DNA of 46,915 nt from an uncultured Clostridia bacterium. Its GTDB lineage: Bacteria > Bacillota > Clostridia > Christensenellales > UBA3700. A program made the position numbers and the translations under genes. Location: NCBI GenBank assembly GCA_947176265.1, contig CAMWQA010000004.1:1-46915 (forward strand), read 5' to 3'. Below the pieces are notes generated by a model. That model was not told where the DNA came from. It did not search any database and saw nothing but the letters and a program-made list of their open reading frames with translations. Below, piece after piece: positions 9,382-13,301 of the stretch; the stretch's first letter is position 1; each line of letters begins with the position of its first letter.

Positions 9382-9458
9382 GCACTCATAGCTCAATTGG
9401 ATAGAGCGTTCGGCTACGGACCGAAAGGTTGGGAGTTCGAGTCTCTTTGGGTGCACCA
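9382..9458 (+). tRNA. tRNA-Arg (anticodon ACG), integration target
   Basis: Acceptor GCACTCA pairs with TGGGTGC, the discriminator is A and CCA is encoded; length 77 nt. The anticodon stem TTCGG/CCGAA holds loop CTACGGA, so the anticodon is ACG. The T-stem GGGAG/CTCTT has two G-U pairs next to the acceptor, a little weak but functional-looking. Its last nine bases (GGTGCACCA) are repeated at 13104-13112, marking the ends of an inserted element. The downstream terminator it now uses is supplied by that element. Confidence 0.96.
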
Positions 9459-9480
9459 ATCACAATGCAAGTCGAACACC
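9450..9480 (+). other. attL: tRNA-Arg core plus element left arm (P')
   Basis: Core GGTGCACCA at 9450-9458 followed by ATCACAATGCAAGTCGAACACC. This arm matches the reverse complement of the right arm at 13081-13103 in 20 of 23 positions. Confidence 0.8.
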
Positions 9481-9505
9481 TTAATGTTTGGCTTGTATTT
9501 TTTAT
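9464..9505 (+). terminator. Element-supplied terminator for tRNA-Arg
   Basis: AATGCAAGTCGAACA pairs through 15 positions (including G-U) with TGTTTGGCTTGTATT, followed by TTTTTAT. The 5' half of the stem is the recombinase arm site itself, so the attachment arm doubles as terminator. Confidence 0.75.
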
Positions 9506-9549
9506 TACGCTCTGGCAATCTTGTAAACGGCTACTTTATGCCGCGAAAG

Positions 9550-9687
9550 CCACTTGACGAGAGAAAGGAGTGCGTTAGGCTTGAACGCCATAGGCAAACC
9601 AAAACCCACCGAGTTTCGCTCGATGGGTTGCTGTGTTCGCCCTTATTTGCCTATCATACGCACTCCTGCGAGGCTCACGTCAAGTGG
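9550..9687. repeat. 138-bp interrupted inverted repeat (cruciform)
   Basis: Nested arms in order: CCACTTGACG/CGTCAAGTGG, AGGAGTGCGT/ACGCACTCCT, ATAGGCAAA/TTTGCCTAT, AACCCA/TGGGTT, GAG/CTC. It lies between the left attachment site and the recombinase 3' end. A single-strand origin or other replication structure of the element is possible. It contains no credible ORF. Confidence 0.8.
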
Positions 9688-9706
9688 AACGTGGAATAAA
9701 TAGCCA

Positions 9707-11212
9707 TTATAGGCTTAATTCAATTTTCATTTTAATCGTTGTATCTTCGGTATATGAATATTTATGTGTAATCATTCTATATGTTGCCGTATAAAAAATA
9801 AGCCCCGATTTTTCGTCATCGGGACTTATTCTAATTGGACTATTAAATTGTATTTGTATCTTATCGTCAAATAATGTTATTTGCTTTATTAAAAAGTTGA
9901 TAAGTATTTGTGGCTCTAACTTTAACGCTTGATTGTAATATTCTCTTATATCGCTTTCTTTAAGTTGTACCGCTAGTTTGCTATGTTCTATGAGTATTTG
10001 CTTTTCCAACTCGGCTTGTTGCTGTTCTAGTTCGTGCAAACGCTTATTAGTTGTATTTGATATAATACCACGCTCAACGGCACTCACAAGATTATTTAAC
10101 GCTGTGTCAACTTGTCGTTTTTGCTTTTCCAACACTTTTATGATAGCGTTTTCCATTGATTGCTGTCTTTGTATTTGCAGTAACTCATTTACGATATAGT
10201 TCATAATATGTGGCTCGCTTAATTTTTCAATGGTCGCATTGATAACTAATTCTTCGAGTACGTCTTTACGCACCATTGATTTATTACAATCCGCCAAGTG
10301 TTTTTTACGCCCCCTACATTTATAGTAGTAAACCTTTGCACCTGATTTGGACGTACCGCTTTCGCCATTGAGAGTATGACCACAATAACCGCATATAAGT
10401 TTATGGCGTAATAGAAAGTCAACTTTCTCACACCGTTTACAGTTTCTATTTTTCATTACTCTTGCTCTCACAATATCGAAAGTAGATTGCGGAATAATTT
10501 GCGGATACATATTGTCAATGATTTCTTCGCCGTGTTTATATACGCCCGAATACTTTTCATTGCGTAGGATATTGTAAACGCTGTTTTTAATGAACGGCTT
10601 TCCTTTGTAGTAAATACCCATTGCTGTTAGTCCGTCAATAATTTGTCTAATGAATTTTCCTTTTGAATATTCATTATAAATATATCGTACTACTTCGGCA
10701 TCGTTTTCGTCTACGACAATTTTTCGTCCGTCCAACTTGTAGCCATACAATAACGTACCGCCTTGAAAGTAACCTTTACGGCGAGTTTCTTTCATACCAC
10801 GACTGACCTTTTGAGCAAGTTCCGCTGAATAGTATTGATTCATACCTTCGAGCAAACTCTCTAATATAATGCCTTCGGGTGTATCGGGGATATTTTCCAT
10901 TGCTGACAATACTTTTACGCCGTTATCTCTCAATGTCTTTTTATGTATTGCCGTTTCGTATTTGTTTCGAGAAAACCTATCAAGTTTGTAGACAAGTACA
11001 TAGTTCCATTCTTTGCGATTGCTATCCTTTAACATACGCTGAAAGTCGGGGCGGTTATCATTTGTACCTGTCATTGCTCGGTCGATGTAAGTATCGAGTA
11101 TGAGAATATTATTGCGTTGTGCATATTCTTCACATACTCTCAACTGTCCGTCGATAGATTGTTCCGTTTGTTGGTCGCAAGAGTATCTTGCATAAATTAC
11201 TGCTGTTTTCAT
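9707..11212 (-). CDS. Large serine recombinase (integrase)
   Basis: A 501-aa phage/ICE-type serine integrase that should cut and rejoin attP and attB. The resolvase N-terminal domain begins MKTAVIYARYSCDQQTEQS, where Ser11 is the predicted nucleophile. YKLDRFSRN is the conserved helix region. The recombinase domain spans about 170-270 (GYKLDGRKIVVDENDA...), and a zinc ribbon has CGYCGHTLNG and a later C/C pair (KCRGRKKHLADC). A coiled-coil segment lies around 350-410. It is the gene closest to attL and is preceded by GGGAG. Most such enzymes do not choose tRNA 3' ends, so this target is somewhat unusual. It is complete and looks active. Confidence 0.95.
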   Translation of the reverse strand: MKTAVIYARYSCDQQTEQSIDGQLRVCEEYAQRNNILILDTYIDRAMTGTNDNRPDFQRMLKDSNRKEWNYVLVYKLDRFSRNKYETAIHKKTLRDNGVKVLSAMENIPDTPEGIILESLLEGMNQYYSAELAQKVSRGMKETRRKGYFQGGTLLYGYKLDGRKIVVDENDAEVVRYIYNEYSKGKFIRQIIDGLTAMGIYYKGKPFIKNSVYNILRNEKYSGVYKHGEEIIDNMYPQIIPQSTFDIVRARVMKNRNCKRCEKVDFLLRHKLICGYCGHTLNGESGTSKSGAKVYYYKCRGRKKHLADCNKSMVRKDVLEELVINATIEKLSEPHIMNYIVNELLQIQRQQSMENAIIKVLEKQKRQVDTALNNLVSAVERGIISNTTNKRLHELEQQQAELEKQILIEHSKLAVQLKESDIREYYNQALKLEPQILINFLIKQITLFDDKIQIQFNSPIRISPDDEKSGLIFYTATYRMITHKYSYTEDTTIKMKIELSL

Positions 11213-11226
11213 TTTTGTTTCTCCCT

Positions 11227-11403
11227 ATTAAATTATTTATTTTGTCTTTCGACGGGAGCGAAATAAACGAAATCGTCTTTGCTGTTCTTCCATTGGCTGT
11301 CTTTACTCTTGCGGTCAAGGGTTGCCAACGGCAATGCACTTTACCCTTGACGGCAAGGGCGGTTTCGTTTACGCTCCCATAGGCGAAAGACAAAATAATT
11401 TAA
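11227..11403. repeat. About 177-bp interrupted inverted repeat between recombinase and rep genes
   Basis: Outer arms AAATTATTT..TGTCTTTCG and CGAAAGACAAAATAATTT; then GGGAGCG and ATAAACGAAA against TTTCGTTTA and CGCTCCC; then TCAAGGGT/ACCCTTGA with an inner TTGCC-AAC-GGCAA hairpin. The right arm overlaps the end of rep. The layout suggests a rolling-circle origin or terminator structure, but no nick site can be named. Confidence 0.75.
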
Positions 11404-12284
11404 TTGGCTTTTGGCATTTGCCTTATTATCTCCGCACTTATCTCGCCCATAATTAAGCCGTCGTCCACGCAAGTAAAGTTATCAAATAACAAGGCTTTTT
11501 TATCGTCTATTCCTATCGGACAAACTATATCTTCGTCCAAAATATCACTCACTAGGTAGGTGGGCAATTTACCTCCAAACACAAGTTTCTCGCCACTTTT
11601 CTCTATGTATTTGAGCAAATATCTCACGGCTTGCGGTATCTCTCTTGAACATATCTCTTTGAAATCGTTCCGTCCAAAGTGTTTTAGAAAGTGCGTGTTT
11701 TGATAGGTTGTTTGTTTCCTATGGCTCTTTGTACTAAAATCGTTGACTTGTTCCAACGTGCCTATCATTTGCGGTATGTAGAAGATTCCGTGAAAATGTA
11801 AGCGTTGTTTTTCGGGCGAACGCTCCCACACGCCTATATATTTCCAACCTTTACGGCTGACAAGGTGTTTGAGAGTGTTCCGCAACTTTGCCTTGAACGT
11901 TTCTTCCGTGTGCTTTTCGCTATCGTAAGTAAACGTAACAAAGTAATTCCACTCTTGCAAATATATCTTCCGCCATAAACGTGTACGCCGTTTGGCGAGA
12001 TTGTCTTTCTTTCGCTCCACGTTTTGCTCGATATATTCCGTTGCTTGCTCGGTAGTAGTAAACTCGCTTTGCAGTTTCTCGGCAATATATCCCTTGCGTT
12101 CTCGCTTGGGTAGGCTTTGACTCTCGGCGTAGGCTGTATCAAACTTTGACTGCAACTCAACTTGTCTAGGCGTTGCTATCGCAGTATTCTTCCGTTTACT
12201 GCCTTTGCCGTGCTTGTAGTTCTCTTGCAGTATCGCAATGTAATGACTTCCGTCATAATAGACTTTTGCATTTTCAAATGGCAT
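11400..12284 (-). CDS. Rolling-circle replication initiator (HUH Rep)
   Basis: A 294-aa protein with the three HUH endonuclease motifs in order: WNYFVTFTYD (motif 1, around residue 112), RLHFHGIFYIP (motif 2, the HxH metal site) and YLLKYIEKSGE (motif 3, single catalytic Tyr followed by KY). It should nick the double-strand origin of a small circular form. The first 100 residues are a basic region that probably helps bind DNA. AAGGAG precedes the ATG, and the stop of a 45-aa ORF lies 14 bases upstream, so the two are probably cotranslated. With the serine recombinase it makes the element both integrative and self-replicating in principle. Confidence 0.88.
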   Translation of the reverse strand: MPFENAKVYYDGSHYIAILQENYKHGKGSKRKNTAIATPRQVELQSKFDTAYAESQSLPKRERKGYIAEKLQSEFTTTEQATEYIEQNVERKKDNLAKRRTRLWRKIYLQEWNYFVTFTYDSEKHTEETFKAKLRNTLKHLVSRKGWKYIGVWERSPEKQRLHFHGIFYIPQMIGTLEQVNDFSTKSHRKQTTYQNTHFLKHFGRNDFKEICSREIPQAVRYLLKYIEKSGEKLVFGGKLPTYLVSDILDEDIVCPIGIDDKKALLFDNFTCVDDGLIMGEISAEIIRQMPKAN

Positions 12285-12298
12285 TTTGTTTCGCTCCT

Positions 12299-12436
12299 TT
12301 ATTGCTTATTTTTGGCAAGTTCCAACACTCTCGAATAGAGCGTTTGGAAAAATACAATTTTCTCGCTTGGCTCTTGAATATTAGGCTCTCCAATAAATTC
12401 AATAGACAAGTCAATGTGTAACTCGGTTTTCAACAT
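12299..12436 (-). CDS. 45-aa protein upstream of rep
   Basis: Absent from the ORF track because of its size. It reads MLKTELHIDLSIEFIGEP and ends LELAKNKQ. AAGGAG sits 9 bases before its ATG. Its TAA overlaps the AAAGGAG of rep, which strongly suggests translational coupling. No family is recognised; a copy-control or Rep accessory role is only a guess from position. Confidence 0.7.
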   Translation of the reverse strand: MLKTELHIDLSIEFIGEPNIQEPSEKIVFFQTLYSRVLELAKNKQ

Positions 12437-12481
12437 TTTCAAAATCTCCTTGCTGGTTGTGAGATTAGTCTAGCAATTATT

Positions 12482-12519
12482 CGGGGAAAGTGTTAGAATC
12501 TAACTTGTACTTTTCCCCG
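12482..12519. repeat. Stem-loop in the putative origin region
   Basis: CGGGGAAA / TTTTCCCCG arms with an inner GTTAGA/TCTAAC hairpin, upstream of the 45-aa ORF. Confidence 0.7.
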
Positions 12520-12580
12520 CCAAAACCTAGTATCTACCTAATCTCAACCAAACAAAACTTGAACAAACAAGTACAAAAAT

Positions 12581-12648
12581 GGTGGCAACGTAAAAAAATC
12601 GGGGGCTCGTGGAAAGCCTGCGCACGAACCCCGATTTTAGTTGCCACC
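12581..12648. repeat. 68-bp cruciform in the putative origin region
   Basis: GGTGGCAAC/GTTGCCACC outside, then AAAATCGGGG/CCCCGATTTT, then CTCGTG/CACGA around a short loop. Almost the whole length can pair. T-runs flank it, so it could also end transcription. Confidence 0.8.
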
Positions 12649-12683
12649 TTTGGGTAAGGTATTTTTTTGTTGTGTCTAGTCGT

Positions 12684-12743
12684 GTGGCGGGTGCTTGACG
12701 GCGAGCGTAAGCGAAGCCGCTTGTTATATCAAGCACCCGCCAC
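12684..12743. repeat. 60-bp inverted repeat with 15-bp perfect arms
   Basis: GTGGCGGGTGCTTGA and TCAAGCACCCGCCAC with an inner CGGC/GCCG hairpin. With the two preceding stem-loops it fills the 396-bp stretch without a credible gene (12437-12832). That fits a replication or mobilisation origin. Confidence 0.8.
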
Positions 12744-12765
12744 AGTGCCAAAATACTTTTTGTTG

Positions 12766-12821
12766 TTGCTTTTATTATGCAAATATGCTACAATAGTTGT
12801 ACGATAAACAGTAATTTAACG
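12766..12821 (+). promoter_or_regulatory. Promoter and leader of the 69-aa gene, repeated at 13229-13284
   Basis: TTGCTT, 17 bases, TACAAT, then AGTTGTACGATAAACAGTAATTTAACG. The -10 and the following leader recur almost unchanged before the lipoprotein at 13302. Confidence 0.65.
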
Positions 12822-12832
12822 GAGAAATAAAA

Positions 12833-13042
12833 ATGATTTTACCTGTACCCCTTATCGTAAGAAGGCGCATTATAAACAAGCTATTGGAAAAGAATGCTAT
12901 TTCTATTGAAACTGCTATTACGTTGGAAGAAGCAGGCATCTCAGGTCCAAATAATTTTCAAGCGGTTATCTCGCGCTTGATTGAACAAGGCGTCGTGCAT
13001 CAACTTGATAACAGATATTATTTGGATACGACAAAGCTGTAA
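12833..13042 (+). CDS. 69-aa winged-helix-like small protein
   Basis: The protein reads MILPVPLIVRRRIINKLL..., then AVISRLIEQGVVHQLDNRYYLD. The layout of helix, helix and a short beta hairpin ending in RYYLD is like a small winged-helix DNA-binding protein, but no family is firmly recognised. GGAG precedes the ATG. It is the last gene of the element and the only one on the plus strand, facing attR. Control of the element or excision is a guess. Confidence 0.7.
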   Translation: MILPVPLIVRRRIINKLLEKNAISIETAITLEEAGISGPNNFQAVISRLIEQGVVHQLDNRYYLDTTKL

Positions 13043-13080
13043 ATTTCAATTTATCGTAGAAAAATACAAATGCAAGTCGT

Positions 13081-13112
13081 GGTGTTCGACTTGCATTCGC
13101 ATTGGTGCACCA
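13081..13112. other. attR: element right arm (P) plus core
   Basis: GGTGTTCGACTTGCATTCGCATT followed by GGTGCACCA. The arm is the near-perfect inverse of the left arm. The inverted partner AATGCAAGTCG at 13069-13079 also makes a local hairpin. Confidence 0.8.
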
Positions 13113-13140
13113 TTACGGGTGTATAAGAACACCTAGAAAG

Positions 13141-13170
13141 AGAAATCGCAGTTGCGGTTTCTTTTTCTTT
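13141..13170 (+). terminator. Probable original terminator of tRNA-Arg
   Basis: AGAAATCGC-AGTT-GCGGTTTCT followed by TTTTCTTTT. It lies about 30 bases past attR, where the tRNA terminator would have been before insertion. Confidence 0.75.
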
Positions 13171-13228
13171 TGCGTTATTAATTATTACGATATTGCTAAT
13201 AAGGTTATATATTGTAGTTAGTTATGGC

Positions 13229-13257
13229 TTGTAAATTTACATTGCTTTTGCTATAAT
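13229..13257 (+). promoter_or_regulatory. Promoter of the 157-aa lipoprotein
   Basis: TTGTAA, 17 bases, TATAAT, followed by the leader GATTGTACGATAAACAGCGATTTAGCG shared with the 69-aa gene. Confidence 0.7.
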
Positions 13258-13301
13258 GATTGTACGATAAACAGCGATTTAGCGTGGAGAACGAAAAAAT
13301 T

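Follow-up and report, generated by a model that had tools for sequence, protein, structure and literature searches.

The window, i.e., the whole analysed stretch of 46,915 nucleotides from an uncultured Clostridia bacterium, contains an integrative element inserted at the 3′ end of a tRNA gene. The features of this locus, each followed by the evidence on which it rests, are given below in the order of their coordinates.

9382..9458, + strand: tRNA-Arg(ACG), the target gene (ARAGORN, Rfam tRNA, empty site in genome G005)
9450..9457, no strand: left core GGTGCACC, belonging to attL, with the exchange at GC 9453-9454 (bracketed by mismatches in relatives)
9454-9458, + strand: last five bases of the tRNA, CACCA, supplied by the element (empty site in G005)
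9458..9480, no strand: integrase-proximal arm of attP (20/23 positions symmetric with the distal arm)
9464..9505, + strand: proximal arm hairpin with T-run, predicted intrinsic terminator of the tRNA transcript (fold -18 kcal/mol, z -3.8; T-run)
9707..11212, - strand: large serine integrase, 501 aa, with Resolvase, Recombinase, and zinc-ribbon domains (protein-family matches)
11400..12284, - strand: Rep-like protein, 294 aa, PF23343 Replication-associated protein ORF2/G2P (family match; constant in relatives)
12833..13042, + strand: 69-aa open reading frame in the variable cargo position (open reading frame call)
13055..13103, - strand: distal arm hairpin (13063-13103) with T-run, second predicted terminator, reading inward from the other end (fold -24 kcal/mol, z -5.7)
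13081..13103, no strand: integrase-distal arm of attP (arm symmetry)
13104..13111, no strand: right core GGTGCACC, belonging to attR (core repeat)
13108..13174, + strand: displaced right half of attB, consisting of the former tRNA tail CACCA and then the probable end of an older, second-clade element with its terminator (empty site; recurrence; match to an integrase C-terminus)

The identification of a large serine integrase, made in an earlier note on this DNA from the letters alone, agrees with the protein families: PF00239, PF07508, and PF13408 were all matched over their cut-offs, and phrog_95 integrase was matched with E 6e-104. Among phage records, the best full-length matches of this integrase are merely ~40% identical. 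The Rep-like protein matches PF23343 with E 1e-11 and 45 bits (cut-off 27.8), which meets the criterion for a Rep family, and a plasmid collection gave no match for it. Protein-family searches returned no match for the 69-aa product, and Rfam reported nothing over threshold except the tRNA. Ten relatives were delimited: all of them keep the integrase and Rep, and what is left is cargo, among it an AbiH-like protein, a Vsr endonuclease, and restriction-modification genes of types II and IIG. Imperfect long inverted repeats were also noticed at 9520-9700, in the interval that separates the proximal arm from the integrase stop (with likeness in L025, L027, and L028), and at 12590-12760, upstream of the Rep gene (with likeness in L027); both are candidates for replication origins or structured RNAs. 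A promoter-like stretch (TATAATGATTGTACGATAAACAG) occurs twice in the window, at 12786-12833 and ~13242-13300, and stretches of this type have many short matches in genomes of the same genus, as a dispersed promoter-region repeat.

The two copies of GGTGCACC, at 9450-9457 and 13104-13111, are the only ones in the window, and their spacing of 3,654 bp is the size of the element; the direct repeat is one base longer than the core (GGTGCACCA). The earlier note claimed that the ends of the element rebuild a palindromic attP, and both its coordinates and its counts proved right. Joining 13081-13103, the core, and 9458-9480 gives a site symmetric at 20 of 23 arm positions and at 24/27 bp overall, with GC in the center and ATTGGTG^CACCAAT on either side of it. 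Among the 35,450 joins of identical 8-mers possible in the window this one ranks first, the runner-up reaching 16/23. The reconstructed attB, attL, and attR do not form palindromes, with attB symmetric at 8/23 across the same span. The left core is the 3′ end of tRNA-Arg(ACG) as delimited by ARAGORN (9382-9458), and the attB predicted from it was found in the same-genus genome G005, where an empty tRNA-Arg(ACG) site has the predicted junction, tRNA-Arg...CTTTGGGTGCACCATTANGGGCGTATAAG. Generic scans for joined palindromes were discarded, since they return many AT-rich chance pairs; they are usable only if anchored on a tRNA end or on the arm motif, whose spacing is fixed at 5 bp.

Three properties of the locus were missed in the earlier note: the nature of the right flank, the terminators in both arms, and the CACCA in both arms. 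Concerning the first of these, the motif CACCATTACGGGTGTATAAGAACACC with its terminator (13108-13174) is found again in several families, 3′ of genes for tRNA-Lys, tRNA-Leu, and tmRNA, and a second-clade integrase on contig C35 of genome G001 matches it at the C-terminus. Judged by these sequence matches, an older second-clade element probably occupied the same tRNA and left its end at 13108-13174.

Relatives whose integrases are 93-96% identical carry two natural mismatches that bound the point of strand exchange. In tRNA-Lys(CTT) the end GGCG^CACC retains its own C, and the T of attP is found at the opposite junction. The tRNA-Arg(CCG) gene of most unoccupied relatives, including G009, has a GCGCCA end (G73); in G001, where the element is present, the end is GCACCA (A73), the displaced tail is CGCCATATACAAT, and the old CGCC has moved to the far junction. 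Since there are mismatches on both sides, the exchange must lie inside the GC, which is where the earlier note had put the crossover. This swap of the discriminator from G73 to A73 in tRNA-Arg(CCG) upon integration was observed for L027/L230-L242; the discriminator is rewritten because the last five bases of the tRNA come from attP. The window’s own genome has one more arm at tRNA-Arg(CCG) (L243, contig C32), which has CGCCA as its core and may delimit a 1.68 kb element without integrase.

The earlier note also suggested that a site with such a center might not fix orientation, so that the element could insert either way round, and this is borne out by close relatives. At tRNA-Arg CCG, L058 adjoins the tRNA with its integrase-proximal arm; L025 (contig C61 of the window’s own genome) and L059 (tRNA-Lys CTT) adjoin the tRNA with the distal arm. 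These elements have identical arms and gene order, ~93% DNA identity over 3.3 kb, and integrases that are 93-96% identical. Even elements with 96%-identical integrases thus face the tRNA with opposite ends. Both tRNA-Arg(ACG) and tRNA-Lys(CTT) are used in each direction in different genomes. The named relatives are mostly uncultured Clostridia, and the data consist solely of assemblies, a few of genomes and most of metagenomes.

Counts over the family point the same way. Sites with a GC center comprise 12 with the tRNA at the integrase-proximal junction (including L063, whose tRNA was recognised by eye) and eight in which the tRNA is integrase-distal, as indicated by a displaced CRCCA tail; in four of these eight the tail is the only indication, the far end being off the contig or unresolved. 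Among centers GG, GA, GT, AC, AG, and TG, the proximal junction has an ARAGORN tRNA in 30 cases (several more resemble tRNA ends) and is tail-like in one, L140, a possible distal case. The difference between GC and other centers gives Fisher p ~0.001, or 0.013 if a tRNA located at one end is required. These counts consider the integrase-proximal junction only and carry no phylogenetic correction, and it is the same-site reversals that bear the orientation argument. GC centers are scattered over several separate positions of a tree of 53 integrases, whose tips place near and far orientations side by side in L058/L025/L059, L029/L061/L062, L073/L074/L077, and L063/L065/L066.

It could be argued that this is an ordinary tRNA-targeting element with fixed orientation, in which the palindromic GC merely follows by chance from how the tRNA ends and reversed relatives reflect an evolutionary swap of attP polarity. 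The targets are indeed mostly tRNA genes, whose GCACCA ends dictate GC, and L140 and L141 suggest that target polarity can perhaps flip orientation despite a GT center. However, a swap of attP polarity was rejected as the cause of the orientation differences in L058, L025, and L059, in which the tRNA lies on opposite sides of unchanged arms and an unchanged gene order. We consider fixed orientation very improbable, the more so as a second terminator-like hairpin would be needless for it and elements without GC do not have one. A different possibility is that integration is fixed in orientation and the reversed copies arose by later attL x attR inversion, which the symmetric dinucleotide would also allow; in principle, symmetric dinucleotides permit both alignments for any pair of sites (PMC3556126). 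Against this, attL x attR recombination in known systems depends on a directionality factor, of which no candidate was identified in this element, and an attL x attR complex in antiparallel alignment is believed to be unproductive (PMC3783163). Inversion as the sole source of the reversed copies is therefore regarded as unlikely, although the end states cannot distinguish choice of orientation at integration from inversion afterwards, and the former remains an inference.

Several loci of the family deserve mention in their own right. L061 and L062, from two bins of one metagenome, have an identical 1.6 kb integrase block amid DNA that is 70% similar, while within each element the two arms agree; the common block is perhaps due to gene conversion or assembly collapse. 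Next to the tRNA-Arg element L029, two arm-core junctions (13108 and 13256) lie 148 bp apart, the second being the end of another insertion. L220 (1,128 bp), L222 (1,061 bp), L218 (4,079 bp), and L206 (5,406 bp) have two arms and no detectable related integrase, and are perhaps mobilised in trans. In L208, L209, L226, and others, a lone distal-type arm is found directly 3′ of a tRNA with no related integrase within ~12 kb; such arms are possibly fossil ends retained as tRNA terminators.

The arms of attP are associated with a second property, repair of the target gene. In the window attP either arm provides A73 and CCA of the tRNA (the last five bases CACCA), whereas in elements with non-GC centers the proximal side alone restores the tRNA end. 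Reading inward from the core, a stable hairpin with a T-run behind it is present in the proximal arm of every element examined. A terminator-like hairpin in the distal arm is present in 11/11 GC-centered elements and in 0/11 others; the scan used was a simple one, and hairpin plus T-run is found in 4% of random stretches. Each arm thus meets the sequence criterion for an intrinsic terminator, i.e., a stable hairpin with a T-run immediately after it on the transcribed strand.

These hairpins might instead act at the level of DNA, as cruciforms or additional copies of the integrase-binding sequence, or be insulators of a general kind, and not terminators of the host tRNA. This explanation has in its favor that the integrase arm motif makes up the outer strand of each hairpin, opposite an inner strand that looks like another copy of the motif. 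It does not, however, account for the position of the scored T-runs, 3′ of the hairpin on the tRNA-read strand, nor for the G·U pairs kept on that strand, which number 88 against 18 on the complement in proximal arms and 15 against 2 in GC distal arms (11 against 19 in other distal arms). The tRNA-read strand also folds better than its complement in 44/51 proximal and 9/9 GC distal arms, compared to 4/11 other distal arms. The strand figures were obtained for an unselected fixed window and not for hairpins picked on the sense strand. In addition, fixed-orientation elements lack the hairpin at the end away from the tRNA. A role of the hairpins in DNA alone is accordingly doubtful. The strand and G·U bias suggests selection on RNA and hence a terminator function, which would include the distal arm in orientation-free elements alone; as far as sequence can tell, this points to arm hairpins kept foldable as RNA read from the tRNA side, with termination itself inferred.

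Genomic islands and prophages with tyrosine integrases integrate at the 3′ ends of tRNA genes and restore the tRNA end. They have longer asymmetric cores, a single orientation, and restoration at one end, whereas the element described here has a serine enzyme and restoration at both. It is a large-serine-integrase integrative element by membership: the domains of the integrase, the ~50 bp attP with inverted half-sites, an attB that differs in the arms, and the dinucleotide exchange all conform. It shares domain order, such an attP, a different attB, and 2-bp exchange with phiC31, Bxb1, and the A118/LI-type integrases. The one criterion not met is an asymmetric dinucleotide with a single orientation, as GC is symmetric and relatives lie both ways; in this natural symmetry with both orientations the element departs from its class. 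In Bxb1 and A118 orientation is known to be set by the dinucleotide alone (PMC3783163; PMC3556126), and A118 sites made symmetric by the G1C mutation gave 52.5% deletion and 47.5% inversion (PMC3556126). In A118 and phiJoe the asymmetric GG fixes orientation, in contrast to the natural GC with both orientations here, where attP arms double as terminator-like hairpins. The A118 G1C and Bxb1 dinucleotide mutants allow both alignments, as the element is inferred to do (with both products for A118 G1C), but they are engineered, and the symmetry of the element is natural, recurrent in its family, and tied to tRNA repair at two ends. Mutant sites have already shown that symmetric dinucleotides leave orientation free; what we have not found described is its natural use and the pairing of terminator-like arms that carry the tRNA tail. 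No report of natural symmetric dinucleotides or terminator arms was found in the open literature, with subscription papers not covered.

Taken together, the locus is best explained, with high confidence, as a natural serine-integrase element with a palindromic GC-centered site, found in either orientation and with both arms serving the tRNA. Read from sequence are the sites, the empty site, the bracket around the exchange, the two orientations, the hairpins of both arms, and their strand bias; recombination, termination, and integrase activity are inferred. It is proposed that the circular form bears the near-perfect palindromic attP, which the integrase would recombine with tRNA ends of the type ...G^CACCA or ...G^CGCCA, swapping strands at GC. 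As GC pairs with itself in both alignments, orientation would not be set by the site, and the element could enter, or flip later, in either direction. Each arm would then give CACCA followed by a hairpin and T-run ending the tRNA transcript, and the tRNA would stay functional with either end adjoining, because both arms supply the tail and a predicted terminator. In more general terms, there is probably a natural class with double-ended, orientation-free tRNA insertion, in which a self-complementary dinucleotide is coupled to two arms, each consisting of half-site, CACCA, and intrinsic terminator; elements with asymmetric dinucleotides have one such arm.

Serine integrases are valued since the central dinucleotide sets orientation, and this lineage appears to have given that up naturally. 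One and the same piece of DNA seems to combine the roles of tRNA tail, integrase-binding site, and predicted terminator of the transcript, and two bases predict whether an element carries one or two terminators. The family yields tRNA-targeting integrases with mapped sites, with cargo that includes restriction-modification genes, and it offers a natural experiment on the joint evolution of site symmetry, orientation, and host-gene repair.
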